DNA of 20,006 bases from a virus, in IMG/VR virus record IMGVR_UViG_3300021368_002089, positions 1 to 20,006 of that record; one strand, given 5' to 3'. Under the pieces are notes generated by a model. It was given only the letters and a program-made list of their open reading frames with translations. It was not told the DNA's origin and ran no database searches. Below, in pieces: positions 3,954-19,917 of the stretch. Position 1 is the stretch's first letter. Every line of letters starts with the position of its first letter. The position numbers and the translations under genes are program-made.

Positions 3954-5537
3954 TTAGAATTCCAGAATAATTTTAACGTCTTCTTTTTGTCTAGAGTCTC
4001 TTGTGACAAGAGAACGATTATCGATGTAAATAACATCTCCCGTGTTTTTATTTATCTCTGGATCAGAAACACCTCCAGAAAAAGTAACTCCCAAACTAAC
4101 CTGTTTGTCTCCAATTGTTGTTGTAATTCCACTAAATGCTATATCAACTCCAGCAGAGATATTGCCCTCAATATTTGCAGTTGTTGAAGCAAAACTAACA
4201 ATATTTGCAGTTGAACTTGTATTTACAGAATCAGTTTGATCCGTAGTATTTGCAAATGCTCTTGATCTATCCTGATAATACTTTAAAACTTTTGTTTCAG
4301 TATCATATGATGCAATATATCCTCTTGCTTCACCATTTGCGGTAGTTTGAGATATTGCTGCTCCTACAACTGGTGTTCCTGTATAGGATTGAACTAACTT
4401 AATTGCACCTAAAGAAGAATATTCATTAGCAGTATAAATTGTTTTTGAATTATACTTTTCTGGATTTTTTACAATTCCAATTTGAGCAAATTTTGTGTCA
4501 GTTGGAAAATCTTTTGTCGAATCATCAAATCTTGAATATACAAGAACTCTATCAGAACCCAGTTCGGTATACACATCATATCCATGTCCTCTAGATGGAG
4601 GAATGATTGGAATGAGTTTTGCTTGATCTCCTGCAGGAATTGTAGTATTGGAAGCATGTTGGAAATCTACGATTCCAAATGTATATCCAGATCCACCAGC
4701 AACAACAGTTGCTTTTGTAATAGATCCACTTGTATCAACTTCAATATTTACTTTTGCTCCGGTTCCATCACCCTTAATATCATAAGTTCCTGTAGTATAA
4801 ACACCCTTTCCACCATCAGCAATATAGACAGTTTTAATTTGATTGTTATTTACAGTAGAATCTCCAGCGTCTCTTATACTTTGTATTTGAAAGTCTGTTG
4901 AAGTTGCCCAATCATTTGGAAGAACGATATATTCGGTAGAATCAAATTTAATAATATCACTTGGTGAGATAGTAAACAAGTATTTCCAAATATACCCATC
5001 ATTGCTTACTCCAGCAGCTGAAGGTTCCAAATCAGTAAAAGTTGGTTCATCCTGAGAATTATTTCCAGTGAGATTTGATCCTAAACTTTCAATAGGACCA
5101 TGAGAACCGTTTTGAAGACAAATATAAACTCTAAAATCTTTATTCACAACAAAATAATTACTATCATAAAGCCTTGCAGACTGTGCATTTGGTGACTTAT
5201 TTGATCCACTATAATCATGTCGATACATATCGTATCGAGTATTCACTGTCCAAGTAACTTTTCTTACGACTCTTCTTACATTGGAACTGTTTAATTTTTT
5301 TCCAAATAATGCAGTATTTCTATAATGACTCAAATACTGTTGATTATCGACCGGACTTGGAGGCGTTGACGGAGTGTCCCCCCAAGTCGTGGTTCGTCCA
5401 AATCCAACAGGACTTCCAGTCTCTCCTGGATTAGAAAGACCAAGAAAAACATAATATGAGTTATTTGCGTCCAATACAGAATCTACAAAATTATTAGCAT
5501 TCGCAATTCTAAATTGGTCTGTTACTATAGCAGCCAT
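3954..5537 (-). CDS. 8: Baseplate wedge protein gp8
   Basis: A 527-residue homologue of T4 gp8 (334 residues), which forms a dimer in each baseplate wedge and binds gp7, gp10 and gp6. Matching landmarks as I recall T4 gp8: the N-terminal IVTDQFRIANANNF with FGRTTTW (residues 46-52), NDGYIWKYLFTISP followed by TEYIVLP (179-207), FAQIGIVKNP (350-359), and the C-terminal GDVIYIDNRS ... VKIILEF (500-527). The extra length lies in two places. About residues 235-300 carry one GSGY-type beta module (AGGSGYTFG). About residues 366-495 separate the KNP segment from the C-terminal strand and include GEARGYIASYDTETKVLKYY (402-421). The start ATG at 5537 has no clear Shine-Dalgarno; it is preceded by TAAT and lies 18 bases below a TATAAATA late promoter. 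The stop is 6 bases before the DUF4815 gene, so the two are probably co-transcribed. Confidence 0.93.
   Translation of the reverse strand: MAAIVTDQFRIANANNFVDSVLDANNSYYVFLGLSNPGETGSPVGFGRTTTWGDTPSTPPSPVDNQQYLSHYRNTALFGKKLNSSNVRRVVRKVTWTVNTRYDMYRHDYSGSNKSPNAQSARLYDSNYFVVNKDFRVYICLQNGSHGPIESLGSNLTGNNSQDEPTFTDLEPSAAGVSNDGYIWKYLFTISPSDIIKFDSTEYIVLPNDWATSTDFQIQSIRDAGDSTVNNNQIKTVYIADGGKGVYTTGTYDIKGDGTGAKVNIEVDTSGSITKATVVAGGSGYTFGIVDFQHASNTTIPAGDQAKLIPIIPPSRGHGYDVYTELGSDRVLVYSRFDDSTKDFPTDTKFAQIGIVKNPEKYNSKTIYTANEYSSLGAIKLVQSYTGTPVVGAAISQTTANGEARGYIASYDTETKVLKYYQDRSRAFANTTDQTDSVNTSSTANIVSFASTTANIEGNISAGVDIAFSGITTTIGDKQVSLGVTFSGGVSDPEINKNTGDVIYIDNRSLVTRDSRQKEDVKIILEF
4049..4056 (-). promoter_or_regulatory. 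Possible weak late promoter (GATAAATA) within the end of gene 8
   Basis: The minus strand reads GATAAATA here, one base off the perfect late motif TATAAATA, inside the C-terminal coding region of gp8. It lies 102 bases upstream of the DUF4815 start at 3947. Being coding DNA, it could be chance; it is listed because all four NATAAATA octamers found on the minus strand lie shortly before a gene start. Confidence 0.25.
4677..4769 (-). repeat. GSGY-type module in gp8 (residues 257-287)
   Basis: One copy of the module G-x-I-x(2)-h-x-h-x(3)-G-x-G-Y, here GSITKATVVAGGSGYTFG, preceded by a DGTGAKVNIEV strand. The same unit occurs about thirteen times in the neighbouring giant gp7-like protein. It lies in one of the two gp8 stretches that have no T4 counterpart. 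Confidence 0.7.
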
Positions 5538-5566: not shown

Positions 5567-8500
5567 TTAGTTAACTGTTTCTGGAAGTGCTCCAGTTTTT
5601 CTAAGTCCTTCACCCCTTCTTTGGATTGTTGGGAAGGTTGATAAACCAACATCAACAGTTTTTCCAGTAATTCCAATAGAAATTGGATTATTTGATCTAG
5701 TTATACTAGTAAATAATCCCCAAGAGAACTCACCAACAAAATCTCCCGTTGAAGAAATACCTGACAGATTCGTGCTTGAATCAACATTACAAGTTACAAT
5801 ACCAACATTACCACTAACACTTATCTCACCAATATAATAAACATTATCCAAGAATGTTGTTCCAATACCAACAACAGCAGAATTAGATTCAATGATAGAT
5901 GTAACTCCAGTACCAATGTGAGTATTTCTGATCATTATTGGATATCCAACCTGAAGGTCACCTCCAAAAGTTGCTCCCCTATCGAGGAAGAACTTGAGTG
6001 CGGATGGATGTCCACCCCATCCACTAACTGCTTCAATACCAGTTATGATTCCAGAGAATCCTTTGACATCTGCAATAACTCCAAGAGATTCTGTAGTTGG
6101 GTCTGGTAAAGGAACAATAGTATTTGGAGCAGAACTGTAACCAAGTCCAGGATTTGTTATTGTTGTTCCGGTAAGCACTCCACCAGCTCCTACCGTTGCT
6201 GTTGCAGTAGCAGTTGTACCAATACCAACACCAACTCTAAATGGGTTCTGGAACTTAATGTTTACTGTAGATCCAGTATATCCACTTCCTCCATTTGCAA
6301 TTGTAAGTGCATTGACAGATCCATTACCATCAATAGTTGCAGTTATATTTGCAGGTGATGGTTCTGTTGCTTGATCAACAAGTAATGCTGTAAGTGCATT
6401 ATAATTTGGAGGTGGAGTTCCCATATTGTAAGTGAAGTTACTTACATCATCTACGAAGATTCTATTATCTGAGGAATCAATATCAAAAATAACTTTTGCT
6501 GTTGGGTATACCTGAGCAATTGTTGATTTTCTTGTTTTAGGAACAATTCTACCGTTAATTTCTTGATCACGTTTTTGTTTTGTCCAATAAAGTGGTTTGT
6601 CGTTAACTTCATCAATTCCATCACCCAAGTAGAGGTTAGTTTCGAATTTATCTGATGATGTAACATCAAAGACTATTCTTGGATTTTGAGTTTTTGTTGT
6701 ACTAATAAGATCATCTCTGAATAACTGGACAGTATCTCCTTCTTCAATTGTAGGAATAATGTTATCTACAAATACATCATCCAATCCCCTTGTTCCTCTA
6801 TAGAAGAATATATCAATAACGTCAGTTGATTTGGGAGCAACAGAGAACGCAAATGAGGTTCCACCATCAAATGTATAGGCATCTCCTGGTTCTTGAATAA
6901 CACCGTTTATAATGACAAGAAGTGCATTTTGGAGTTCTATTCTGGAGTTTTCTGGTTTTTCAAAACTCAACAAAGATCCATTGTAGAAGAGTGGGAATCT
7001 AACTCTAACTCCATCCTGATAGTTTTTGATCGAGTCAATAAAGTCAAGTTCTCCGAATTGCCATGATCCAAAATTATCATTGAATACTTGCAACACTTCA
7101 AACTGCAACTCTGATACTGGACTGGAAACATTAATGTCAGTTACAAGTCCTACTGGTGAGAATTTATCACCCTTTCTGAATGCATATCCATTTCTTGCAA
7201 TATTGAAAGAATTTACATTGAAGTAAGTTGATCCTACTCCAACAGTATTACTGGCACCAACAATAATGTCCAGCAATAATCCATCCCCAGTATCTACAGT
7301 TGCTCCAACACCAAGTCTAGAAATACCAGTTATTCCAAGTCCAGCATAAGATGGTTCCGATACAAGTATCTGTGGATTTGTATATCCAGTTCCACCATTA
7401 GTAATATTGAATATTACTGTACCACCTATACCTGCAGTTCCTGTGATTGCTGCATTGGAACCATTAGGGTCTGATATGGTTACATTTATAGGAGTCAAGT
7501 GATTATAACCAGATCCAAAAGTTCCACCTGTTATTCCCGTAGTAAGACCTGTTATAGTTCCACTACCATTAATAGTGGCAGTGACAGCAGCACCGGCCAG
7601 AGGTGCATATCCAAGTCCTCCAGTAAATCCGAGAGAAACAATTACACCTCCTCTTGGAATGTCATTCTGATTAACATCAGACTCAGAAATAATAACATTA
7701 CTGCTACCATCTGTTCTTATTCCGGAGAATCTAATACTACTTACTCCTGGAGAAGGAGAAAGTGTTTCGATAATGCTGAAGTTATTTGATGGATTGTTCT
7801 CTGTTGTTGGTGTTTGGAATATTCCATTAATGAATACAACACCATTTCCACCAGTTGTTCCGATACCAGAGGTATTCACCCCACTAACTGTAAGAGTATG
7901 AGTTCTCTCCTTTCCATCAAATGAAGAGGATACATCATCATAAACTTGGTTTGAAGAATAATCACTTCTGAGGAAAACTCTACCAGTAAAATCAGAAGTT
8001 TCAAATTTCAAGTTTCTTTCTGTTCTGGTAATGTTAGAGTTTCCTCTAGGTGGTGTAATGAAGTGAATACTGTCACCAACAATGTTATACGATCCTTTAT
8101 ATACCCTAGCAGCTGTTGCACTAGCATGATTTGTTGCCGCAGACCCAACAGAACCTCTCTCAACATTAACAAGAGGAATTGTGCCTGTATTGGTTATAGG
8201 ACCTGTAGATAAAGTACCAAGACCAACATTGATAATCTTCATATATTCGTCATCAACTTCCAATAACTCTAGTGGATTGACCGAACTAATATCATTGAGG
8301 GGGAATGTTGTTGCTGTAGTTGAAATATTGCCATTTAAACTTTTAGCAACATTTGTGAACAATAAAGGATACTGTGCAATATTATCCAATGTGATAATTG
8401 CCTTTTCATTTCTCTTCGACATTGCAAATTCATGTGCATTACCTTCACCAGAAGAAGTGAAAGTAACCGCAGTTCCAGCAGTTGCATGTGCTTTTGTAGT

Positions 8501-11500
8501 TGCAATTTGGAAAGTGTCCTCAGTTACAACAATCGCAAATACTTGTGTTGGAAGTTGTGCTTCAATAGATCCTTGTTTGTACATCATAGGAGTTGATCCA
8601 ACACCAACAAAAGTTGACCCTGGAGTGTATATCAACTCTTCAGTATTACTGAAGAAGTGATCTTTGATAGTGAATACTCCGGTAGATTGATTGAGAGTTG
8701 TAGAATCTTCAGGATCAACAGTCTTTGCGAAAATTGGAGTAGTATTTGATCTAAGTACAAAGTCAGTTCTATTAATTCTATCTCCATTTATTGCGAGATA
8801 TTGTGAAGTATTTAAATCTTCGATAGAATTGCCAAATACTAAAGATGGTGGTTCATTGATAAAATCGACACTGGTGTAGAAACACTCACTGAATGCCTTT
8901 ATTTCTGTATCTCCATTGTGATTTGCATCTGGGTAGAATTTGACCAGAACATTATCACCACTAAACTCACCACCAAAGGTTCCAATACCTAAAGTACTAC
9001 CTATTGAGATGAAAGAAGATTGTTGAGTGAATACATTGGTTCCGTCATGAACCATCATTAACTGATGAACTGACTTGGTAGTATCTCCAATACTAACTTC
9101 CACTAAGGATCTTGATGAATCAAAAATGTTCTTGTCTAAAGTTAGGAATGCTGTTGAAACTCCAGCAGTTGTGGTTGTAAATCCAGTTTCATATGTTGCA
9201 GATCTTTCTGCACCAATTGGTTGTGTTGGCAGTCTATACCTAAACGTTCCTACACCAACTGCAGTTGTTCCAAATCCAACAGTTCTTGTTCTAAGGACAA
9301 CATCCTCAGCAGAATCATTAAGATATGTCAGACTGACTATTCCAGAATTTACAGTAGCACCAAAGGAACCGATAAAGTTACTAGAACCAGAAATTGCAGT
9401 AGTGTCAAAGTAATATTCTGCAAGATTAGTATCATCTCCATCATGTGTTAAATATAATTCAACAAAATTAGTTTCACCACTCACTTCTTTAGTAACGAGT
9501 GCATTTACATATAGTGCAGTAAACTTATCAGTTGAAAAACCGATGACTGATTCTGTAGTATTAATAAGAACTGTTTGAGCACGACTAGTTAAATCTATGA
9601 ATCCTATAGATGATGTTCCAATTCCGATAGTAGAATTGTTAAATTTCTTCTCAATAAACTTAATATCATATTCAGTATCATATGGATCTTCTGGAGTAAA
9701 TCTTAAGAAAGTAACTCCAAACTCATCTGTTTCTAAACTAAAATCACCATATTGTTCATCATTTTCGGTTGTAAATCCGAGACCTACATTTACCAAAGAT
9801 TGTTTTTCCAGAACAAGTTTGTTACTACTAACAGAATCATTTAAAAACACTAAATTTGTCAATTGAATATGATTTTTTCCACTGATATCACTTACTTTAA
9901 ATATGTAATTATTATAGAGACTAGAATCATCAACTTGTAAAATATCCTTATATTCAAAAGGTTCGTCATCGGAACTGGAGAATTGATCTTGTATATCATC
10001 AACTCTCAATACTTTATTTGACTTGGCTTCAGTGTAATTTGTAAGTCTCTTTTGACTCAATCTTATAAATTTAGATCTATTACTTAAAACATCAATATCT
10101 TTAGCATAATCAAAGTTGTTGATAGTATCAACTCTCTTTTCATCAATATAATCTCTAATAATTGTTGATATTTCTTCAGTTGATGTAATTCCAACTCTTT
10201 CATCAGAGTCAGATATGACTTCAGTATCTGCAAAGTTTTTGATACCAATGCTATGAACTAAACTATTGACTGGTGTTCTGATATCTTTCCATTGCTGTCT
10301 ACTCTTAATAGAATATGAAAGATTTTGATAATAATCATTATCAGGTAAAACTTGATAATCTTCATTCAGTTTTCCAGTTTGTTTCTCCCAACCCTCTTCT
10401 TTTCTGTTGGAGAATTTGATTTCATAAATTCCATCATAATTTGTGAGAGTTTCAACAGTTGCAATGTTTCCAGATGTTTTTCCTGTAATTATTTCACCAA
10501 CAGAAAGTTGATATGAACCAAATACTTTAATCAAACCAGTATTATCAAATCCAATGACTTCTAAGTCTCTCTCTATACCGTCAGATAAGAGTTTTTCACC
10601 AACTTCAAAATTGGATATTATTAGTTCAATACCGAATGCTGGATACTTTGTTTTATTAACTACAGTAGCATATGAAGATGTAATAGTCTGTGCTATTCCC
10701 GTTTGAGTTGTTAATCCAGCCAGATTAAATGTAACTTGATCATCATTAAGACCAGGTGTCAGTTTATTTTCATATTTTGATACTGTAAAGAATTTAAACC
10801 CATAATCACTAGCATTAAATCCAGTGCCATTCGAACTATACTTCGTAATTCCCTCAACAAATACCTCATCATTTACAGCAAAAACATCTGTACTAAATCC
10901 GGCAGAAGGAGTCGTTAGTATACATGTAAATATACCAGTATTATCAGATAAAACTTGCTTAACACTAACACCATTAGTATTATTAATTGCAAAAATTTCT
11001 GCAGATTGATCAGATATTCCTTTTGGTGGAACATCAATCAATACCTTATTAATTGAACTACCAGATAATATTGGTCTCAATAAACCACTATCCAATTTCG
11101 TTCTAGTATTGTTGTTTACGACTATTAATGTTGGTTCTCCAACATATCCAACTCCACCATTCGTAACTGTGATAATACCTACAGTGTTTGTATCTTTTAA
11201 TGTAATTTTTGGTGATATGAAAGCTTCTGGTTGGAGAGTTTTATCGGAGGAATATTCAAACCCTTCATTTACGATTTTTGTTTCTATTACTTTGCCAATA
11301 GTATTAGTCTCCAACGTTGCAAATAAATTTTTACCGTTAGACTTATCAACACCAGTAAACATCGGAAGTTTCTTATATCCAACTCCAGAAGAAATTAAGT
11401 GTATTTTATCTACTGCTCCAGATGCAGAAGTTGATTTAGTAGTGTACTCTAAAGCATCACACTCGGAAGAAGTGTAGGAAAGTTTTTCTGGAATGTTCTC

Positions 11501-14500
11501 CAAAGCAATTTTAAAAGTTGTGAGTCCAACTTCTGAAATTTCATATTCTTTGTTGTATACACTATCTACAAATAATATTTCAGAATAATTTTTAACTTCT
11601 TTATCTGATGTGCTGATGAAACCAGTTTTTTCTAAAGAGTAATAAAGTCTATCTGGGAAATTGGATCCATGAGAAAGAGTGAAGGTTGCATTTGCAGATC
11701 CAACTGTACCAGAACTAGATGTATTAAATGTGCTACTATTTCCAACGGAAACAAATTCATTCTTAAATTCTCTATCGTAGAATACTTTAAATTCATATCC
11801 AGTCAAAGAAGAATCAGAAAGGTCAAAAACAAGATTGTTATTTTTTATAGATTTAATTCTTGGATTGATTTCAGAAATAGTTTGAGATGCACCACCAGTA
11901 GATCCAAAACTTACGATTACTGGAGGATTGCTATTGGTATTTACTAAAGTTTCACACAATTGAATATTATCTTTTGTGTAATTATAAACATAATATGATC
12001 CTGTTTGAAGTCCTGATATTACTGTATCTGCATCATAATATACCTTATCACCAGTTTGGAAATCATGTGAAGGAAAATTAATAGTCGACATATCAGCATT
12101 GACTGATACGGATGAGAATCCTATGGGATTAACTTGAATATTTTCAGTGTTAGAATTTCTATTTAATCTAATAGCAGTAGAAGTACCAATACCTACAGAG
12201 AGATTTGGTTTTACATTGAGTGTTACAAGGTCACCCTCAGACAATCCGTGTGCCGAAGAAATTGAAACAACAGAATTAATTCTTCTAAACACACCACCAA
12301 CGTTATCATATCGTTTTAAGAAGGAATAGTCATCAGTATTATCACCATTCACTCTAAAGTAAACTTCATCACCAGTTAAAGTTGTTTTTATACCAATAGT
12401 GTTTGGAGACTTGTTAACTGCATATACAAAGGTTGGTAAATTGAAAGGTGTTCCTGTTGGAGAGGTAGAAATTGAAATTGCACTATTAGATCCTTTATCA
12501 AATTCGAGTTTCTGATTAGTTTTGAATGGATGATTTGGTAAAGATATTCTTTGAGTCGGAACAGATCCGGTAATAGTCTCATTACCAAAACTGTATGTAA
12601 CTTCTATTCCAATTCCACTAGTTATTCCAATACCAACCGATTCAATTGGATTGAAATAAACACGATCCGAAATCTTTGATTCAAAGAAATCAACTTTTTT
12701 ATCAACTAAAAATTTAACCTGATTAAAGGTTACTGCCATTCCTACGGTATGTGCCGTGCCTGTAAGTCCTCTTTTGACTCTAATAACATTTTTATCTGGA
12801 TATAGATTTAGAATTTCTAAAGTTTCTGTTCCAATACCAATAGTCGAATTTACATCAGGACTGATTATAACACCTGAAGGTATATTTGTTACATAAATTT
12901 CTGTGCCTCCCGATCCAACAGAAATTTCTGTAGTTAAACCAACATTAGGAATTGATACTAGTTCAATTTTATGATATCCATTTAATTTAGAAGATTCGTC
13001 AGGAACATTTCTGATATCATTTGTATCAGTACTATCATATTGTTTTGTTATGGAATCTACCTTGACATAATCATTATTGGATAATTTACTACCAGAAGTT
13101 CCGGATACGACTAGTTCAACTTTTTCATCATTTCTCCAAATAAATTTAACTGGAGCAGCATCTAGTGTAGTCTCAACACTATCAACTGTTTTTCCTTTCA
13201 ACGAGGAAATATTAGCAGTCAGTCCTCCACCACTAGTTCCCGTATTATCAAACTTTAGTTTCTCACCTACTTTGTAACCTTCACCAGAATTTAAGATATT
13301 GATTGAAGATACCGAACCTTCACTAATTGAATCGACAACAATCTTTTGTCTCTTGATTTCATTACTTTCAATGATAAAATCGTTATCTGCAGTTGGTTCC
13401 GCAATTCTATATCCAAAAGTATTTCTTGACAGAGATGAATTATTAAAATCAAAGGTTTGATCCAAAGATCTATTCTCTTCTAATGTATTTGATCTATATT
13501 CATCTCCAATAAAATATGGAAATGTCGGATCTCCTGTGGTTGGATTTACTGTTGCATAATATGCATAAACTCCATTTGGAAAGTCTACTGTTTTTGCAAA
13601 TCTTCCATTATACTTATCGAGATCACCATTAACAGAATCATACTTATAGTCTTCTACAAAGAAACCAAGAGGGAATGAAGAAAGTGGTGGTCTATCTTCA
13701 ATATTAGATGCATCTTTGAGATAACCAGAAGTCATGGTTTTGATCCCAGAGTTAATATCTGTAGGATCTAAAGGTGCATAAGAACCGTAAATTGGGTTTC
13801 CATCATATGCCCATCCAATAATTCCTGAAAGATTACTAGAAGTATCATTGAATGAGTTTCTTAAAATATTAAAATAACCATTTACAGAATATGAAAGATT
13901 ATCATCTACATCTTTTAATTGTTCTGTTTGCTGCTCGAACGAAAGTTTATCTACATAATTGACTGAAAGTGATCTTATAGATGTATCAAAAATTTCTCCA
14001 GAACCATTTGGAATTACGTTTACTACAGTTGTATTTGAATATCCAATGCCAGGATTTACAATATTAACGGCAGTAATTTTTCCATTGCCAATTTCTGCTC
14101 TAAGTTTTGCACCACTCCCACTTCCTGTTGGGTCAAATACCTCTAACTCTGGAACTGAAAAATATTCTCTTCCACCAAACTGTAAATTTACGGAATTAAT
14201 GATACCAGAATTAATAATTGGTTTTACTTGTCCTTCTTTACCAGTTTTTACAGTAAGTGTTGGTTTCTTTTCTAAGTTTAGAACTTCAGAACCATATTTA
14301 GTTCCTGCTTCATAAACATAAATCTCTTCAATACTACCCTTTACGACAGGTGTTAGAATTATATTATTAACCTGTGTTGTGGTTCCAAGTCCTACACTAT
14401 TGTAGTTTAGGGTTAATTGTAAATCAGGATACTTGAACTGTTGGAAACCAGTTCCAGTAGAAGTGAATTTTATAAAGTTTTCTTGATCAAAGTTTGTTGT

Positions 14501-17500
14501 AATGGTTGCACCAACACCGGCATCACACAATCTGAATGAATCGGTTGAGTCGGTTAAAACAAAATATTGAGTTGACTCTGATAGACCAGAAATTGTTTGT
14601 GGCTGAGTGCTTCCTAATCCAACCACAGCAGAGTATTCTACAACTTCACCATTAGAGAATCCATGGTTGGTAAAATTAATAGAGAAATCTGAAGTAGAAA
14701 TTCCTGCTGGTTTTACTAACAGTTTTCTATTTGTAAAAGATCCACTATCAAGAACTCTAACTTCCGATAAAGTTTTCTTTGCCTCTCCAGTTTGAAACTT
14801 TTGAGTTCCATTTAAAGCAGTAGTTCCAAAAGAAATTGTATTAATTCCTGATGTATAGTCTTGAATTGTATTGAATAATTTTATGGTTGTGTCATTATCT
14901 ACCTTTACAATATATGTTGCATTATCAATCAAAGATGATAAACCTAATCCAATACTGACACTTTCATTACTTAAGTTTTTATAAACAACTTCATCACCAC
15001 TTTGTAAGTTGTGATTTTCGATAAAAGTCAGTTGTGAGGTAGTTGTACTAATTCCACCACCATCTGTAGTTGCTCTTGCATCGAAAAAGATATCTCTCTT
15101 TCTTAAAATGGTAATTGGATCAAAACTTCCACCAGATCCATTTAAACCACTAGAAGTTATAGAAAGAATTTCATTAATATCAAAATCTTGTTTATCTACA
15201 ATAACTTCTTTAATTTCTCCCTTTACAACTGGTTGAACTAATGCAGTAGTTCCAGATCCTGCAGATACTTCAATAAATGGAGGATTGATTACATCAAAAT
15301 TAGATCCACCAGATAATACCTCGACATTTTCAATAGGTCCGTAATAGACCTTATCAAAAGTTTTATAGTTGGAAATTTCAACACCATTAATCAACATTCC
15401 GGTTGTTCCTGGAGTTGTCTTCTCTCCAGTACCATTTGCAATATTTTGATTGAGATTAAATTTCTTAAATATCTTCTGTGGGTCTATTGTCTCTGATCTT
15501 TGTTCATATAAAACAAATGTATGTGTTTCTAAAGTAGTCGTTGCAGACTCAAATTCAATTGCATTTGTATCACCAGTAAGAAAAGATAAAGCAGTAAAAA
15601 GTTTAATTTTCTTTGGATTTGAAGAAGAAACTTTTACGAAATAAAAATCATCAACAAGTCCTTTCAACCTCTGTCCAGTTGGAGTATATTTGACTCTATC
15701 ACCACTAACAAATGGAACATTAGTGTCAAATAAAATTGAGGTATATAATCCTGTGTCTATATTAACATCCTGGAGACTACCAGAAGTGGATGAAATGGAT
15801 GCTTTATTTAATTGTCTGGATATACGATATGCATAATCAGTGATAAGATTAGATCCTCTTACTCCCGATGAAGGCAATGAATTGGATGCAACATAAGCAA
15901 AATCACCATCTACATATAGATTTTGTATATCTGATATAATTTTTTCATTTCCATATTTGAAATTAACAGAAGTACTAGATGCTTTGTTAATCTTTCTTCT
16001 TATTGAATAGGTATCGGGAGAACTTACAAAAACAGTGTTGTCAAAATTTGCAAGTTCTACTGTTTTAGATCCTGCAGCAATCTCAGCTGAGACATATGGT
16101 TCACTAGAAGTTGCAGTTGGATAAACTATAGTTCCTGAGAGATCAATAAACTCTACAAGGTCACCCTTTTTCAATTGAGATCTATCAATCTGAGAAAATA
16201 AATCAACGTTCGCACTATCAATTTTTTTAATTTTTGCCGAAGAACTAGTATTATAAATCCACGAATTTGCAAAAATTTCTTTATATGTTTTATTTTGTTC
16301 TGGGTTCTTGATTAATGTTCCAACATTTTTTACGGTTATTTCTTGACCTTCATCAACAAAAATATTTTTAGACTTCTGTACGAAGTTGGACAAGACTCCA
16401 GTTAATCTAAGAACTACTTTCTTAGTTGTGTCTCCCTCTTCATATGCAAAATAAGTATCGTCAGAGTGAATATTGTCAGTTGCGTTGATATCACTAGTTA
16501 CACCAGAACATTCTAAGAACTGATTAACACTCTTATTTGTATAGGTGATTGTATTGTCACCAGAATACATTGTTCCAGATTCTGGGAATCCAATTGTAGA
16601 ATCTACTGATATTACAGAAGAACCAACACTAACTTTTTCTAAAACTTTTGATGAAGGAGTAATCTGAAAATTTCCTTGTACGGAACTGTTTTCATCAAAT
16701 CCTACAAACAAAGAAACTTTGAAGAACTGTTTTTGATTTCTAGTAAATGATTCTACTGCAGATATTGATGCATTTACAAAAGCATCAGTTGTTTTTGTCA
16801 AAGTTTGACCAACAAGTTTTGTTGGATCACCAGAGATAACTTCAGCAACACATACTTCCCTTCTGATGAAGTTCGCATCAGAAGGTTTTGTTACATAATC
16901 TTCTAAGTTGATTATACTTGGAGTTTCTCCATACAATACGTTAAAGAGTATTCTAAAGGAATCATCAGTTCCTTTAGACTCATAAAAAGACCTTGCTTCT
17001 TTTATAAAGTTCCCTACATTTATTTCAGAACTTAACTCTCTATTTTCAAATCCAGGTGTAAATGTAGATTTGATTTTATTATAAAATTCCTTTAAAAATA
17101 ATGAACTAAGATTTTGTATGGTCGTACCACTATTATGAGATGAAGTAGTTGATGTGGAAAATACCAATTCTTCATCATTCAAATTCTCACGATAACTAGT
17201 AATACCAGAAAATCCACGAACACAACCAGTAAAAGTATTTGTTGTTAGACCAGTGTATGTTATAATCTCATCATTAATTTTCAGTAATCCATATTGATTT
17301 GGAAATCCTTTTGTAGTTGGTACTGTTATAGTAGTATCAACAGTATTAATATTAGAAGATAATGTTGTAGAACCTACAATTACTTCCGGAGTGAGATTGT
17401 CTACCTTAAGGTATTGATCTAAATTTTCTACTATATCAACAGGACCACCTTGATATTCTTGAGAAATATAATATTGCTTAAGAAAATCTACTGCCTTTGG

Positions 17501-17584
17501 ACTTTCGTCCAAGACAAACTCTGGCAATTGATTGGAAACTATATCCTGAATCTTTACTCTTGATTCAATTCCAGTCTGTATCAT
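5567..17584 (-). CDS. 7: Giant gp7-like baseplate wedge protein (4005 aa)
   Basis: The position between gp6 and gp8 is that of T4 gene 7 (1032 residues), whose product links wedge proteins gp6, gp8, gp10 and gp53. Residues 155-290 match the T4 gp7 C-terminal core as I recall it: ARSFYESKGTDDSFRILFNV then KLVGQTL. A second core piece, YYQNLSYSIKS..W...V..LVHSIG, lies at 2418-2447. T4 has only a few tens of residues between these pieces; here there are about 2,100. The N-terminus (VDFLKQYYISQEYQGG) resembles the segment just before the T4 core, so the first ~740 residues of T4 gp7 have no visible match. The rest is Gly/Ser/Thr/Asn-rich beta modules: GSGY, FCCH-like, GFP/RG, three tandem ~100-residue units, and a YHYH-type domain (1253-1365). 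It ends with FPTIQRRGEGLRKTGAL. No signal peptide or membrane segment is evident. The start ATG is one base after the gp6 stop, with GAGAG four bases upstream. Six copies per baseplate, as in T4, would be a very large mass. Confidence 0.85.
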   Translation of the reverse strand: MIQTGIESRVKIQDIVSNQLPEFVLDESPKAVDFLKQYYISQEYQGGPVDIVENLDQYLKVDNLTPEVIVGSTTLSSNINTVDTTITVPTTKGFPNQYGLLKINDEIITYTGLTTNTFTGCVRGFSGITSYRENLNDEELVFSTSTTSSHNSGTTIQNLSSLFLKEFYNKIKSTFTPGFENRELSSEINVGNFIKEARSFYESKGTDDSFRILFNVLYGETPSIINLEDYVTKPSDANFIRREVCVAEVISGDPTKLVGQTLTKTTDAFVNASISAVESFTRNQKQFFKVSLFVGFDENSSVQGNFQITPSSKVLEKVSVGSSVISVDSTIGFPESGTMYSGDNTITYTNKSVNQFLECSGVTSDINATDNIHSDDTYFAYEEGDTTKKVVLRLTGVLSNFVQKSKNIFVDEGQEITVKNVGTLIKNPEQNKTYKEIFANSWIYNTSSSAKIKKIDSANVDLFSQIDRSQLKKGDLVEFIDLSGTIVYPTATSSEPYVSAEIAAGSKTVELANFDNTVFVSSPDTYSIRRKINKASSTSVNFKYGNEKIISDIQNLYVDGDFAYVASNSLPSSGVRGSNLITDYAYRISRQLNKASISSTSGSLQDVNIDTGLYTSILFDTNVPFVSGDRVKYTPTGQRLKGLVDDFYFVKVSSSNPKKIKLFTALSFLTGDTNAIEFESATTTLETHTFVLYEQRSETIDPQKIFKKFNLNQNIANGTGEKTTPGTTGMLINGVEISNYKTFDKVYYGPIENVEVLSGGSNFDVINPPFIEVSAGSGTTALVQPVVKGEIKEVIVDKQDFDINEILSITSSGLNGSGGSFDPITILRKRDIFFDARATTDGGGISTTTSQLTFIENHNLQSGDEVVYKNLSNESVSIGLGLSSLIDNATYIVKVDNDTTIKLFNTIQDYTSGINTISFGTTALNGTQKFQTGEAKKTLSEVRVLDSGSFTNRKLLVKPAGISTSDFSINFTNHGFSNGEVVEYSAVVGLGSTQPQTISGLSESTQYFVLTDSTDSFRLCDAGVGATITTNFDQENFIKFTSTGTGFQQFKYPDLQLTLNYNSVGLGTTTQVNNIILTPVVKGSIEEIYVYEAGTKYGSEVLNLEKKPTLTVKTGKEGQVKPIINSGIINSVNLQFGGREYFSVPELEVFDPTGSGSGAKLRAEIGNGKITAVNIVNPGIGYSNTTVVNVIPNGSGEIFDTSIRSLSVNYVDKLSFEQQTEQLKDVDDNLSYSVNGYFNILRNSFNDTSSNLSGIIGWAYDGNPIYGSYAPLDPTDINSGIKTMTSGYLKDASNIEDRPPLSSFPLGFFVEDYKYDSVNGDLDKYNGRFAKTVDFPNGVYAYYATVNPTTGDPTFPYFIGDEYRSNTLEENRSLDQTFDFNNSSLSRNTFGYRIAEPTADNDFIIESNEIKRQKIVVDSISEGSVSSINILNSGEGYKVGEKLKFDNTGTSGGGLTANISSLKGKTVDSVETTLDAAPVKFIWRNDEKVELVVSGTSGSKLSNNDYVKVDSITKQYDSTDTNDIRNVPDESSKLNGYHKIELVSIPNVGLTTEISVGSGGTEIYVTNIPSGVIISPDVNSTIGIGTETLEILNLYPDKNVIRVKRGLTGTAHTVGMAVTFNQVKFLVDKKVDFFESKISDRVYFNPIESVGIGITSGIGIEVTYSFGNETITGSVPTQRISLPNHPFKTNQKLEFDKGSNSAISISTSPTGTPFNLPTFVYAVNKSPNTIGIKTTLTGDEVYFRVNGDNTDDYSFLKRYDNVGGVFRRINSVVSISSAHGLSEGDLVTLNVKPNLSVGIGTSTAIRLNRNSNTENIQVNPIGFSSVSVNADMSTINFPSHDFQTGDKVYYDADTVISGLQTGSYYVYNYTKDNIQLCETLVNTNSNPPVIVSFGSTGGASQTISEINPRIKSIKNNNLVFDLSDSSLTGYEFKVFYDREFKNEFVSVGNSSTFNTSSSGTVGSANATFTLSHGSNFPDRLYYSLEKTGFISTSDKEVKNYSEILFVDSVYNKEYEISEVGLTTFKIALENIPEKLSYTSSECDALEYTTKSTSASGAVDKIHLISSGVGYKKLPMFTGVDKSNGKNLFATLETNTIGKVIETKIVNEGFEYSSDKTLQPEAFISPKITLKDTNTVGIITVTNGGVGYVGEPTLIVVNNNTRTKLDSGLLRPILSGSSINKVLIDVPPKGISDQSAEIFAINNTNGVSVKQVLSDNTGIFTCILTTPSAGFSTDVFAVNDEVFVEGITKYSSNGTGFNASDYGFKFFTVSKYENKLTPGLNDDQVTFNLAGLTTQTGIAQTITSSYATVVNKTKYPAFGIELIISNFEVGEKLLSDGIERDLEVIGFDNTGLIKVFGSYQLSVGEIITGKTSGNIATVETLTNYDGIYEIKFSNRKEEGWEKQTGKLNEDYQVLPDNDYYQNLSYSIKSRQQWKDIRTPVNSLVHSIGIKNFADTEVISDSDERVGITSTEEISTIIRDYIDEKRVDTINNFDYAKDIDVLSNRSKFIRLSQKRLTNYTEAKSNKVLRVDDIQDQFSSSDDEPFEYKDILQVDDSSLYNNYIFKVSDISGKNHIQLTNLVFLNDSVSSNKLVLEKQSLVNVGLGFTTENDEQYGDFSLETDEFGVTFLRFTPEDPYDTEYDIKFIEKKFNNSTIGIGTSSIGFIDLTSRAQTVLINTTESVIGFSTDKFTALYVNALVTKEVSGETNFVELYLTHDGDDTNLAEYYFDTTAISGSSNFIGSFGATVNSGIVSLTYLNDSAEDVVLRTRTVGFGTTAVGVGTFRYRLPTQPIGAERSATYETGFTTTTAGVSTAFLTLDKNIFDSSRSLVEVSIGDTTKSVHQLMMVHDGTNVFTQQSSFISIGSTLGIGTFGGEFSGDNVLVKFYPDANHNGDTEIKAFSECFYTSVDFINEPPSLVFGNSIEDLNTSQYLAINGDRINRTDFVLRSNTTPIFAKTVDPEDSTTLNQSTGVFTIKDHFFSNTEELIYTPGSTFVGVGSTPMMYKQGSIEAQLPTQVFAIVVTEDTFQIATTKAHATAGTAVTFTSSGEGNAHEFAMSKRNEKAIITLDNIAQYPLLFTNVAKSLNGNISTTATTFPLNDISSVNPLELLEVDDEYMKIINVGLGTLSTGPITNTGTIPLVNVERGSVGSAATNHASATAARVYKGSYNIVGDSIHFITPPRGNSNITRTERNLKFETSDFTGRVFLRSDYSSNQVYDDVSSSFDGKERTHTLTVSGVNTSGIGTTGGNGVVFINGIFQTPTTENNPSNNFSIIETLSPSPGVSSIRFSGIRTDGSSNVIISESDVNQNDIPRGGVIVSLGFTGGLGYAPLAGAAVTATINGSGTITGLTTGITGGTFGSGYNHLTPINVTISDPNGSNAAITGTAGIGGTVIFNITNGGTGYTNPQILVSEPSYAGLGITGISRLGVGATVDTGDGLLLDIIVGASNTVGVGSTYFNVNSFNIARNGYAFRKGDKFSPVGLVTDINVSSPVSELQFEVLQVFNDNFGSWQFGELDFIDSIKNYQDGVRVRFPLFYNGSLLSFEKPENSRIELQNALLVIINGVIQEPGDAYTFDGGTSFAFSVAPKSTDVIDIFFYRGTRGLDDVFVDNIIPTIEEGDTVQLFRDDLISTTKTQNPRIVFDVTSSDKFETNLYLGDGIDEVNDKPLYWTKQKRDQEINGRIVPKTRKSTIAQVYPTAKVIFDIDSSDNRIFVDDVSNFTYNMGTPPPNYNALTALLVDQATEPSPANITATIDGNGSVNALTIANGGSGYTGSTVNIKFQNPFRVGVGIGTTATATATVGAGGVLTGTTITNPGLGYSSAPNTIVPLPDPTTESLGVIADVKGFSGIITGIEAVSGWGGHPSALKFFLDRGATFGGDLQVGYPIMIRNTHIGTGVTSIIESNSAVVGIGTTFLDNVYYIGEISVSGNVGIVTCNVDSSTNLSGISSTGDFVGEFSWGLFTSITRSNNPISIGITGKTVDVGLSTFPTIQRRGEGLRKTGALPETVN
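5570..5737 (-). other. C-terminal signature of the gp7-like protein (residues 3950-4005)
   Basis: GEFSWGLFTSI followed by FPTIQRRGEGLRKTGAL and five more residues. I recognise similar 'FPTIQRR-x-x-GLR-x-TGAL' endings in other large structural proteins of T4-like marine phages, which supports 5567 as the true end of the gene rather than a frameshift. Confidence 0.55.
6110..6358 (-). repeat. GSGY-type modules, fourth cluster (residues 3743-3825)
   Basis: Two tandem copies: TIDGNGSVNALTIANGGSGY, then GAGGVLTGTTITNPGLGYSS. They are the closest to each other of all copies and resemble the single copy in gp8. Confidence 0.65.
7361..7582 (-). repeat. GSGY-type modules, third cluster (residues 3335-3408)
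   Basis: Two tandem copies: a TINGSGTITGL strand leading to GTFGSGYNHLTP, then GIGGTVIFNITNGGTGYTNP. They directly follow the stretch NDIPRGGVIVSLGFTGGLGY (3307-3326), which I associate with T4-like marine phage structural proteins. Confidence 0.65.
8870..9919 (-). repeat. Three tandem ~100-residue modules in the gp7-like protein (residues 2556-2905)
   Basis: Three consecutive units share a pattern: a strand, a turn, an aromatic-Gly segment, then a hydrophobic 'L-x-F-x-P' strand and a final charged strand. Anchors are YGDFSLETDEFGVTFLRFTP ... EYDIKFIEKKF (copy 1), LTHDGDDTN ... IGSFGATVNSGIVSLTYL (copy 2) and MMVHDGTN ... IGTFGGEFSGDNVLVKFYP (copy 3). Copies 2 and 3 share HDG-x-N and G-x-FG. 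The copies are too diverged to show as DNA repeats. Confidence 0.6.
10205..10567 (-). other. gp7 core, second half (residues 2340-2460)
   Basis: LSVGEIITGKTSGNIATVET (2361-2380) is followed by DYYQNLSYSIKS (2417-2428), W2432 and LVHSIG (2442-2447). As I recall T4 gp7, its last 110 residues contain an equivalent YY-x-x-x-IKS ... W ... V-x-x-x-VHP-x-G stretch soon after the LVGQT segment. Here the two are about 2,100 residues apart in the same chain. Confidence 0.65.
11120..11425 (-). repeat. GSGY-type modules, second cluster (residues 2054-2155)
   Basis: Three copies in tandem: GAVDKIHLISSGVGYKKLP, GKVIETKIVNEGFEYSSD and NTVGIITVTNGGVGYVGEP. The spacing of roughly 35-40 residues is regular. 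Confidence 0.6.
11945..12553 (-). repeat. FCCH-like modules, three copies (residues 1678-1735, 1771-1800, 1832-1880)
   Basis: Anchors are SLPNHPFKTNQKLEF ... FVYAVNKSPNTIGIK, then SISSAHGLSEGDLVTLNV (only the first half is clear), then NFPSHDFQTGDKVYY ... YYVYNYTKDNIQL. A seventh copy lies far downstream at residues 2970-3030 (8495-8677; KDHFFSNTEELIY ... FAIVVTEDTFQIA). Confidence 0.55.
13490..13828 (-). other. YHYH-type domain inside the gp7-like protein (residues 1253-1365)
   Basis: The order IGWAYDGNPIYGSYAPLD, then DLDKYNGRFAKTVDFPNGVY, then FPYFIGDEY is that of the YHYH domain family. The name-giving YHYH is YAYY here (residues 1340-1343), so both histidines are absent. The molecular role of the family is poorly known; in a virion it may be a surface module. 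Confidence 0.75.
14015..15340 (-). repeat. GSGY-type modules, first cluster (residues 749-1190)
   Basis: Several diverged copies of G-x-I-x-x-h-x-h-x-x-x-G-x-x-[YF]: GPIENVEVLSGGSNF, GSIEEIYVYEAGTKYGSE, GIINSVNLQFGGREYFSVP, and the clearest, GNGKITAVNIVNPGIGY preceded by GSGSGAKLRAEI. FCCH-like copies alternate with them. One more clear copy, GSVSSINILNSGEGYKVG, follows the YHYH domain (13244-13324). Confidence 0.6.
14525..15037 (-). repeat. FCCH-like modules, two neighbouring copies (residues 850-905 and 967-1020)
   Basis: Both follow the pattern x-HGh-x-x-G-[DE]-x-V-x-Y ... YxV-x(3-6)-h-L seen in phage proteins annotated with an E1-FCCH domain. Copy one: ENHNLQSGDEVVYKNL ... YIVKVDNDTTIKLF. 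Copy two: NFTNHGFSNGEVVEY ... YFVLTDSTDSFRL. Another copy lies upstream at residues 605-665 (15590-15772; FVSGDRVKY ... FYFVKVSSSNPKKIKLF). Confidence 0.6.
16715..17584 (-). other. gp7 core, first half (residues 1-290), with inserted module
   Basis: Residues 1-67 contain DESPKAVDFLKQYYISQEYQ, the type of N-terminal helix seen in many phage wedge proteins. Residues 155-290 carry LFLKEFYNKI, ARSFYESKGTDDSFRILFNV, LYGE, the YVTKPSDANF stretch and KLVGQTL, which follow the order of the T4 gp7 C-terminal region. Residues 72-131, between these two blocks, are a GFP/RG module and look like an insertion. Confidence 0.75.
17192..17371 (-). repeat. GFP/RG module, copy 1 (residues 72-131)
   Basis: The pattern is a short strand, GFP, a glycine turn, I-[ND]-[DE]-E-x-I-x-Y, then RG: TTITVPTTKGFPNQ ... 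LKINDEIITYTG ... GCVRGFSG. Related copies lie at residues 318-375 (16460-16633; DSTIGFPESGTMY ... ITYTN), 1549-1615 (12740-12940; IRVKRGLTGTAH) and 3081-3155 (8120-8344; LLEVDDEYMKI ... VERGSVGSAATNHA). Confidence 0.6.
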
Positions 17585-17585
17585 A

Positions 17586-19514
17586 TTACTCTCTGATTAA
17601 ACTTCCGTTGGAATAACTTGACGTATAGAAATCTCTGTTGAAAACAGTTCCAGATATTTCATCACCTGATGAAATAACATCCTTAATCATATTTATTTTA
17701 GTTTTTGAGATATCCAAATTGAGATAAAGATCTCTCAAACCAACAACGTCATTTGATTCTGGGAATGCCTGAATCTCTATAACGTTGTTTGGTTTTGATG
17801 TAGATGTAATATTTACCGTTCCTAAATTAATCTCACCATGAATATAATCAACTGTTCCCGCAGATTTTGCCACGACCCTAATTGATCCATCTGGAAGGTT
17901 TTTAACAATTGAAACAATTCCAGTTTTCTTATCTTGATTTGGAATATCTGTCAGATATACAGTGTCATTATCACCAGCAACTTTAAATCCTGTAGATTTT
18001 ATATTCCTTCCATTTTCTAAAACGTGGAATTGATTTCCGAAACACAGTTCATATTGTGCAAATTGGTTCAGTAATGCTACCAAGTTTCTCCTAATTTTAA
18101 CTCTAGATATATTTGACGTAATTGCAGTATCAGTACTGTCAATTGTTTTTAGTGCTTTACTATATCTAAACCTTCCACCAAACTTATTGAGATCGGCAGA
18201 CTTTGAGTAATTTGTAAGTGATTGGGATACTTTTGTCTTTAAACTATCCGGTGTGGTGACCATAGAGTCATTATAATAAACAAAAGAATCAAGTTCAACA
18301 TACAGAAGTTTAAGATCTACGATTTTTTGATTAATACCTGAAATTGAATACTGCTTCAATTCAGATAAGATTCTTGATTTATTAAAATCTGATACAAGGA
18401 AACCATTCTTTGGTTTAATTGAAATCTGAACTGTACCAAATTGTGGTGGATCTAACTCTTCACCACCAACAATTGATACAGAATCAGTATCTGAGTAAAT
18501 TCTTTTTATGATTGATTCATAGTCACGTCCAGTAACTGCCCTATTCTGTGATGAATAAGTTCTGGGAGCAAAATACTTAATTGAATTTAAATCTTCAATT
18601 TCACCACCATTACGTGATGCATTATTTGTTGTTATTGTAAAAGGTTGTGTTGAAAGGTTATTTCCATCAGAATCAACTATTTGACCGGCAAAAGAAAATG
18701 CTTTTGCACCGTTTCCTTCCTTACCACTTGTCGTCACATAATTTATGGTTATAATCTCACCTGTCTCAAGTTTTCTACCAATTAATCCATCACCGAACAG
18801 AAGTTCATATTTTTCGTCCTGAACTTCCTGAATCAAATAAGTATATGAAGTCGAAGTAGCATCAGTAATATTATCAATTAACTTATATTCTACTCCCAGA
18901 CCATTCTCATTTTCTTTTTTCACATATACTTTCATGGTTGATGTATCAATGAAAGAATTATTCAGAATAAATCTTTGATCCAATGAAGCATCTACGGTAA
19001 ATTTTTTGGTAATATATGTCCCTTCTAATATTTCTAAGTTACTAAACGTTGCCGTTCTTTGTTTAATATCAACACCACCAACAACAAAATCAGTTACTGT
19101 AGTTGGTAACTGAACATCTTCTATTATTGAGAATGTATATGCAGTGTCACTTATATCAGCAACGGTAACCAATCCTCTCTTTAATACAAATGTTGGTGTG
19201 GTTGTTCCCTGTGCACTTACTGTAAAGGTTACAGATGCCTTTGCAGCAGTTCTAGAACTCGGTACATACCCAATGTTCCTAGCAAGGGATACAACGTTCT
19301 CACGGAGGGTTGCAGAGTCCAAGAAGGACTCATTAACAACCATGTTAGAGTTGAATGCAGTTATATAAGTGTTGTATGCTAGAGTATCGAGCAATACAGA
19401 AAAGTTAGAACCTTCAAAGTCAAACCCAGAAAAATCTGAATTTGCACGAAGATAACTCTTTATTGACTCTTTTATTTGATCGAAATCTAGATCTGTAAAT
19501 TTTGTAAAAGGCAT
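17586..19514 (-). CDS. 6: Baseplate wedge protein gp6
   Basis: A 642-residue homologue of T4 gp6 (660 residues), the wedge protein whose dimers join neighbouring wedges into the inner baseplate ring; it is related to the baseplate J family. The N-terminus FDFEGSNFSVLLDTLAYNTY (31-50), NESFLDSATLRENVVSLARN (61-80) and IGYVPSSRTAA (81-91) align with T4 gp6 as I recall it. A J-like core is visible: FAPRTYSSQNRAVTGRDYES (315-334), then SIVGGEELDPPQFGTVQISI (347-366). The C-terminal part has the DVVGLRDLYLNLDISK segment (589-604) usual in this lineage. Length is normal and I see no inserted repeat modules, unlike gp7 and gp8. The start is one base after the gp25 stop (TAATATG). Only a distant AGAGG lies 12 bases upstream, so translation may depend on coupling to gp25. 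Confidence 0.95.
   Translation of the reverse strand: MPFTKFTDLDFDQIKESIKSYLRANSDFSGFDFEGSNFSVLLDTLAYNTYITAFNSNMVVNESFLDSATLRENVVSLARNIGYVPSSRTAAKASVTFTVSAQGTTTPTFVLKRGLVTVADISDTAYTFSIIEDVQLPTTVTDFVVGGVDIKQRTATFSNLEILEGTYITKKFTVDASLDQRFILNNSFIDTSTMKVYVKKENENGLGVEYKLIDNITDATSTSYTYLIQEVQDEKYELLFGDGLIGRKLETGEIITINYVTTSGKEGNGAKAFSFAGQIVDSDGNNLSTQPFTITTNNASRNGGEIEDLNSIKYFAPRTYSSQNRAVTGRDYESIIKRIYSDTDSVSIVGGEELDPPQFGTVQISIKPKNGFLVSDFNKSRILSELKQYSISGINQKIVDLKLLYVELDSFVYYNDSMVTTPDSLKTKVSQSLTNYSKSADLNKFGGRFRYSKALKTIDSTDTAITSNISRVKIRRNLVALLNQFAQYELCFGNQFHVLENGRNIKSTGFKVAGDNDTVYLTDIPNQDKKTGIVSIVKNLPDGSIRVVAKSAGTVDYIHGEINLGTVNITSTSKPNNVIEIQAFPESNDVVGLRDLYLNLDISKTKINMIKDVISSGDEISGTVFNRDFYTSSYSNGSLIRE
17690..17697 (-). 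promoter_or_regulatory. Possible weak late promoter (AATAAATA) within the end of gene 6
   Basis: The minus strand reads AATAAATA inside the gp6 coding region, 106 bases upstream of the gp7-like ATG at 17584. One base differs from the perfect octamer. It could add transcription for the giant gene but may be chance in AT-rich DNA. Confidence 0.25.
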
Positions 19515-19515
19515 A

Positions 19516-19917
19516 TTATCTGGTTGCCTCTAATAGGAACGAATATTCTTGTGTCGGAAACTCCTGTCCAATGATGTCAAAAATGACATTTACTTCAAAT
19601 TCATTTCTATCCGGTCTAGGAAATACTTGAATTTCTAAATTATCGACTCTTGGTTCGAAATTTTCAATTGAAGTTTGAATTTGATCAGCAATCACAGAGG
19701 CAGTACCAAAGTCAACGAAGTCAAATAAACTTCCTCTGATATCAGATCCAAATAATGGATTAAAAAACTTTTCGGTAGGTATCGTTTGGACAATATTTCT
19801 CACAGACCTACGTATCGCTGCCTCATTTTTGAGAACACGTAGGTCACCAGTAATAGGATGTGGATCAAATGATAAACTAATATCCTTAAATGCTCTAGAT
19901 ATCCTCCGATTTGCCAT
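19516..19917 (-). CDS. 25: Baseplate wedge protein gp25
   Basis: A 133-residue homologue of T4 gp25 (132 residues), of the GPW/gp25 family, the small protein that sits at the inner baseplate near gp6 and gp53 and serves as the start point for sheath polymerisation. Visible marks are the N-terminal FKDISLSFDPHPITGDLRVL, the helix NEAAIRRSVRNIVQT (31-45), the loop FNPLFGSDIRGSLFDF (52-67), and the conserved EPR tripeptide at 88-90 within NFEPRVDNLEI. The C-terminal half is the usual beta region. It is the first gene after a late promoter, and the ATG at 19917 is the only good start. No strong Shine-Dalgarno is seen. Confidence 0.95.
   Translation of the reverse strand: MANRRISRAFKDISLSFDPHPITGDLRVLKNEAAIRRSVRNIVQTIPTEKFFNPLFGSDIRGSLFDFVDFGTASVIADQIQTSIENFEPRVDNLEIQVFPRPDRNEFEVNVIFDIIGQEFPTQEYSFLLEATR

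Follow-up and report, generated by a model that had tools for sequence, protein, structure and literature searches.

In T4, gp7 is among the wedge proteins that connect the inner baseplate with the outer pins (PMC3004832), and through its core it joins two gp6 molecules in a heterotrimer (PMC6300606). According to a comparative paper, pelagi- and cyanomyophages lack gp7 and seem to have VrlC in its place (PMC7029224). The question raised by the locus described here is whether a giant protein encoded in a 20-kb virus contig is gp7 itself, with its core split by very long insertions. In the window (the whole stretch of 20,006 nucleotides that was analysed), all of the large genes lie on the minus strand in the T4 wedge order as follows: gp25 (19516..19917; Pfam GPW_gp25); gp6 (17586..19514; PHROG 219, E=7e-195, and Pfam Gp6-like); a gp7-type protein of 4,005 aa (5567..17584); gp8 (3954..5537; PHROG 438, E=6e-151, and Pfam Phage-Gp8); and a VrlC/DUF4815 protein that runs off the contig (3..3947; Pfam DUF4815, E=5e-55, and PHROG 358). 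The placement of the gp7-type gene between gp6 and gp8 was seen both in the open reading frames of the window and in relatives, in which VrlC is also named at the same gene position. The giant protein is encoded by a single open frame and was assigned to PHROG 2885, 'baseplate wedge subunit' (E=0). The range 10205-17584 given in the initial annotation lies within this frame but covers only aa 1-2460, and the frame goes on to 5567. Taken with the evidence below, the window protein is very probably the gp7 wedge protein of a T4-like marine phage of the cyanophage type, in which the chain leaves the core three times.

The identity of the core was examined with a gp7-core profile of 111 sequences from T4 relatives, Klebsiella phage KpS110, a Desulfovibrio phage, rhizobial phages, pelagiphages and uncultured phages, with no cyanophage among them. 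This profile matched T4 gp7 contiguously at 644-897 (E=3e-63) and tiled the window protein as three colinear pieces at aa 11-81 (profile 3-71, E=7e-11), aa 165-331 (profile 58-217, E=2e-15) and aa 2363-2455 (profile 192-282, E=1e-10), where the E-values of the pieces refer to a small protein set. The three pieces scored 32.1, 47.0 and 31.6 bits, compared with at most 6.9 bits for 200 shuffled copies and the reversed protein. The last piece is the gp7 match that the initial annotation had expected near residues 2340-2470. Both the Desulfovibrio phage and a Klebsiella phage protein of 283 aa have this core unbroken.

Furthermore, profiles confined to the individual blocks and likewise made without cyanophages each gave a single match in the window protein, block 1 at 189-231 (E=2.3e-7 over 1,615 ORFs) and block 2 at 2413-2455 (E=4.8e-6 over 1,615 ORFs). 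Outside the set of loci with two blocks, the block 2 profile matched five further ORFs only, which came from gp7 loci and were mostly broken or truncated. The occurrence of both blocks in the window protein lies far above the chance level. The motifs FYESKG, LVGQT, YYQNLS and LVHSIG are located at aa 200, 257, 2418 and 2442 of the window protein, all in one uninterrupted frame as had been claimed, and their equivalents in T4 gp7 at 734, 781, 861 and 881; the two blocks are indeed near neighbours in T4, with about 80 aa across the gap. A profile-profile comparison with T4 relatives alone found the two blocks in their expected order (E=3.7e-10 and 6.7e-4), and the best of 14 control windows taken from the insertion reached 0.014 in the same comparison. 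With a T4-only HMMER profile, block 2 of the window was marginal and too weak to stand alone, and it was resolved by the broader profiles. A PDB sequence search, whether with the single protein or with an alignment of aa 160-1355, gave no match.

Predicted structures were compared in addition. The model of aa 160-1355 of the window protein (pLDDT 85.6, pTM 0.70) consists of three helices followed by almost entirely beta structure. Residues 762-851 of T4 gp7, which make up most of Pfam domain V (766-861), aligned to aa 238-408 of this model (Z 8.4, rmsd 3.4 Å, 86 residues); the main insertion therefore extends from about aa 410 to 2395, and a module of about 65 aa lies inside domain V. A Foldseek search of the model against the PDB returned nothing at E<=0.001, with gp7 entries at ranks 2 and 3, and the best match in a viral structure library was the 'baseplate wedge initiator' of phage Bellamy, which belongs to the same family. 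The member from pelagiphage HTVC008M (1,016 aa) was predicted whole at a pLDDT of 59.6 and was weak in the core helices (about 40-60), the T4 counterparts of which pack against gp6. Among about 1,000 solved chains, its top two matches were the gp7 proteins of Klebsiella phage KP1/Lilla1 and of T4 (Z 9.2, 155-157 residues, 21% identity). Residues 190-810 of this model corresponded to gp7 721-895, so that halves about 430 aa apart fell on one contiguous stretch; the rmsd was 16 Å because the placement of the pieces is uncertain, and only their order therefore counts. No solved baseplate structures of these cyano- or pelagiphage-type phages were found.

The window protein can be divided as follows, with all coordinates on the minus strand. 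The N-terminal helical part (aa 1-70; 17375..17584), matched by the first piece of the core profile, is the counterpart of the helical domain at 643-689 in the Pfam layout of T4 gp7. It is followed by insertion 1 (aa ~71-164, ~95 aa; 17093..17374), which was delimited by the offset between the core profile pieces and holds a beta module of the RGfsG type at aa 77-140, identified with the module profile. The block 1 helices (FYESKG...LFNVLYGE) and the start of domain V (LVGQT...) occupy aa ~165-311 (16652..17092), corresponding to the second profile piece and, in the predicted model, to the three helices and the beta structure after them. A second copy of the insertion-1 module lies inside domain V (aa ~312-376; 16457..16651; module profile E=1.7e-19) and forms a separate small beta barrel in the model, and the strand or strands completing domain V were placed at aa ~377-409 (16358..16456) by the structure alignment to T4 gp7. 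The main insertion (aa ~410-2395, ~1,990 aa; 10400..16357) was defined by the core profile gap, the model and the module scan; it is situated at the junction of domain V and the C-terminal helix, and contains GxGY, FCCH-like and YHYH beta domains, the last at aa 1243-1349 (13538..13858; PF14240, E=4e-21). Block 2, comprising the closing core helices (YYQNLSYSIKS...LVHSIG; aa ~2396-2460; 10205..10399), is covered by the third profile piece. Beyond it, a C-terminal extension of 1,545 aa (aa 2461-4005; 5570..10204) was recognised from its BLASTP matches to P-SSM2, S-SRM01 and others and from its GxGY and FCCH-like modules, and an alignment of named phages revealed a length-variable slot within it at aa ~3338-3384 (7433..7573). 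Domain VI, which follows the core in T4 (920-1012), has a Pfam match in T4 and none in the window protein.

The module profile scan distinguished three recurring types in the inserted parts. In addition to the two RGfsG modules, there are about seven copies of an 'H-x-F...GD-x-V-x-Y' module, and the model of one copy is similar to the FCCH barrel found in E1 enzymes (Z 9.3, rmsd 2.2 Å, 77 residues); a stretch of the S-T4 protein scored 28.9 bits with Pfam E1_FCCH, just below the cut-off. About nine copies of the GxGY module are present, for example at aa 1121-1200 (13985-14224). The structure of this module from a pelagiphage relative matched residues 99-186 of the T4 tail sheath protein gp18 (Z 8.1, rmsd 2.5 Å, 27% identity). 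The corresponding sequence match was weak (12.4 bits, E=6.6e-6 for one comparison), with 6.5 bits for the best of 300 shuffles and 3.3 bits for the best other T4 tail protein. The gp8 protein of the window also bears one GxGY module (aa 229-286, E=2e-11), and the module has thus spread to a second wedge protein. The inserted domains gave structure matches to the phage tail tube, to E1 FCCH and to EF-Tu-like barrels, and no carbohydrate-binding fold occurred among the listed matches of the model of aa 160-1355. The initial annotation had described everything between the two blocks as repeated beta modules; about a third of the insertion consists of repeats recognisable by sequence and the remainder does not, whereas the beta character was borne out for the first ~950 aa, which are nearly all beta in the predicted model.

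Graded relatives of this architecture exist. Among 263 loci with both blocks, the second-site insertion was absent in 40, including T4, was 150-800 aa long in 95, comprising pelagiphages and others, and reached 2,013-2,611 aa in 128. The last group is of the cyanophage type, with a median of 2,060 aa and most members between 2,013 and 2,160 aa. The insertion measures 2,126 aa in P-SSM2 and about 420 aa in HTVC008M, and that of S-CREM2, outside the 263-locus count, is 1,541 aa long. At the first site, the insertion is absent in T4 relatives and about 90-105 aa long in pelagiphages and most cyanophages. Syn9 and S-TIM4 carry about 600 aa there instead of about 95, largely GxGY modules. The C-terminal extension varies from about 20 to 2,672 aa among the relatives. 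At the other extreme, the entire protein of KpS110 (Ackermannviridae) has 283 aa, and its blocks nearly touch. In a tree of the core, insertion length tracked relatedness, with a mean difference to the nearest neighbour of 83 aa compared with 1,011 aa after shuffling; the support of the deep branches was low (0.15-0.6), and no direction of insertion-length change is therefore claimed. The split gp7 is a family-wide trait. The earlier suggestion of a lineage-specific apparatus was too narrow, as the split is the rule in Kyanoviridae-type phages and shorter forms occur in pelagiphages, rhizobial phages and many uncultured phages. The central proposal, that some 2,100 residues separate the segments from which the gp7 core is assembled and that a giant beta region loops out between them, is backed by the profiles, the graded relatives and the structure comparison.

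Comparison with known systems delineates what is shared. The gp7 proteins of T4 (5iv5, 5hx2) and of Klebsiella phage KP1/Lilla1 (9f4a) have the same order of helical segment, block 1, domain V and closing helices as the window protein, and are likewise encoded between gp6 and gp8. However, T4 gp7 has about 640 aa before the core and none inside it, whereas the window protein, the core of which starts at aa 11, has almost nothing before the core, about 2,150 aa inside it and 1,545 aa after it. The large N-terminal domains are a feature of the T4 subtype and are lacking in both the window protein and the 283-aa Klebsiella member. The P-SSM2 gp7 (5,195 aa; PHROG 2885) belongs to the same family and shares the insertion sites and a similar insertion length; unlike the window protein, it has its variable C-terminal slot filled with about 1,100 additional aa. 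The core is likewise the same in HTVC008M gp055 and in Pfam PF23786, 'Phage baseplate wedge subunit'; HTVC008M has its insertions at the sites seen in the window protein, with a shorter main insertion, and the KpS110 member has no insertion.

The gp7 label in GenBank and the baseplate-wedge label in PHROGs are already known for several members. Most members from named phages are annotated as gp7 or as baseplate wedge initiator or subunit, including those of S-SRM01 (3,895 aa), ACG-2014f (4,225 aa), Bellamy (4,067 aa), S-CAM7 (4,314 aa) and S-T4 (4,749 aa), in addition to P-SSM2. The S-TIM4 member (6,603 aa) is annotated 'virion structural protein'. HTVC008M gp055 (L005:33435-36485) and its PHROG are labelled 'head closure Hc2'; the 283-aa Klebsiella homologue (L123:3515-4366) is in the same PHROG, and related Klebsiella records use this label, which is probably a wrong name that spreads. 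In S-SKS1 (NC_020851, L128; 4208-11205), the start of the gp7 gene is unannotated and the listed gene starts about 7 kb further on; the database record may contain a break in the frame. The searchable literature yielded no account of a split core, of where the insertions lie or of the graded relatives. The 1,937-aa S-CREM2 member has been detected in purified virions (91 unique peptides, 27% coverage; PMC10665884), and the S-TIM4 host-adaptation paper reports mutations in many baseplate and fibre genes.

It might be argued that gp7 is truly missing, with VrlC in its place, and that the giant protein is a structural or fibre protein of no relation to gp7 that bears the motifs by chance. The published statement of gp7 absence in pelagi- and cyanomyophages (PMC7029224) and the annotation of the 6,076-aa Syn9 member as 'structural protein, putative fiber' speak for this view. 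However, the full core profile matches in order, the gene neighbourhood is that of gp6 and gp8, graded relatives connect the long and short forms, gp7 is the top structural match of the HTVC008M model, and VrlC is present as a separate gene alongside the gp7 core, all of which make this explanation extremely improbable. It is very unlikely, too, that the chain is a polyprotein that is cut after synthesis to let the insertion work as separate pieces. The size of the protein would suit such processing, and the 27% proteomic coverage in S-CREM2 does not prove an intact chain, but the shorter members keep the same architecture and a non-exhaustive search of the region identified no cleavage site or protease. 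With respect to the origin of the insertion, a tandem duplication of domain V with modules added later between the copies was considered, given that the C-terminal piece of the core profile reaches domain V positions in HTVC008M, Syn9 and phiM7. In the stretch before block 2, however, the score of the domain V profile did not exceed that of control windows in the short-insert group (p=0.36) and exceeded it only a little in cyanophages; this origin of the split is thus unsupported by the domain V profile test and appears improbable.

As to function, the initial annotation had suggested a spike, skirt or host-contact apparatus carried by gp7 in place of separate fibre genes, and an insertion acting as the main adhesin deserves consideration. 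Many small beta domains, among them the YHYH domain, would be consistent with receptor binding, and the variable slot of P-SSM2 is filled with tail-fibre-like modules. Moreover, the baseplate proteins of Bacillus phages Deep-Blue and Vp4 hold inserted carbohydrate-binding modules (PMC11406892); like the window protein, these are structural baseplate proteins with foreign beta domains, although their inserts are much shorter and are recognised carbohydrate binders, whereas none was recognised as such in the window protein or among its listed structure matches. Unlike known receptor-binding tips, the insertion is nearly constant in length and is conserved slightly below the core (2.42 bits versus 2.7-3.1 bits). 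These properties resemble those of a structural domain and therefore favour a scaffold forming an outer baseplate tier over a fast-changing spike; they point to structural scaffolding rather than to hypervariable receptor binding as the role of the insertion, and leave the adhesin explanation rather doubtful. The idea that separate fibre genes have been replaced is not supported, as VrlC and fibre genes occur beside gp7 in relatives. That the loops touch the host directly is speculative. If any part of the chain makes such contact, the best candidate, also speculatively, is the slot near aa 3338-3384, where relatives have from 0 to about 1,100 extra aa and which is the place most likely to vary with the host. 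In P-SSM2, the slot content of about 1,100 aa (L001:28231-31572) matches tail-fibre PHROG 5342 (E=1e-101).

For the scaffold that is preferred here, the following arrangement is proposed. The helical segments and domain V of the window protein make up the core by which T4 gp7 takes part in the (gp6)2-gp7 heterotrimer, and the distant segments would fold together with gp6 in an uncut chain. The chain exits this core at three points, namely behind the first helices (~95 aa), within domain V (~65 aa) and, for by far the longest stretch, between domain V and the closing helices (~1,990 aa), and it continues for 1,545 aa beyond the core. The looped-out parts, as strings of small beta domains, probably stand in as peripheral baseplate structure for the ~640 aa that precede the core in T4 gp7, and may form an outer baseplate tier that carries neighbours such as VrlC. 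More tentatively, marine T4-like phages may have used the junction of domain V and the closing helices as a growth point for this whole outer tier, which would be a single covalent loop made in part from copies of a tail-sheath-type domain and would replace the pins and short fibres that T4 encodes separately; this is a possibility to which we give somewhat less than even weight.

In conclusion, usual searches miss gp7 in these phages because up to 2,600 residues interrupt its core. Contrary to the published comparison, gp7 goes back on the parts list of very abundant ocean phages, and its architecture indicates that a baseplate core can gain outer structure by loops instead of new genes.
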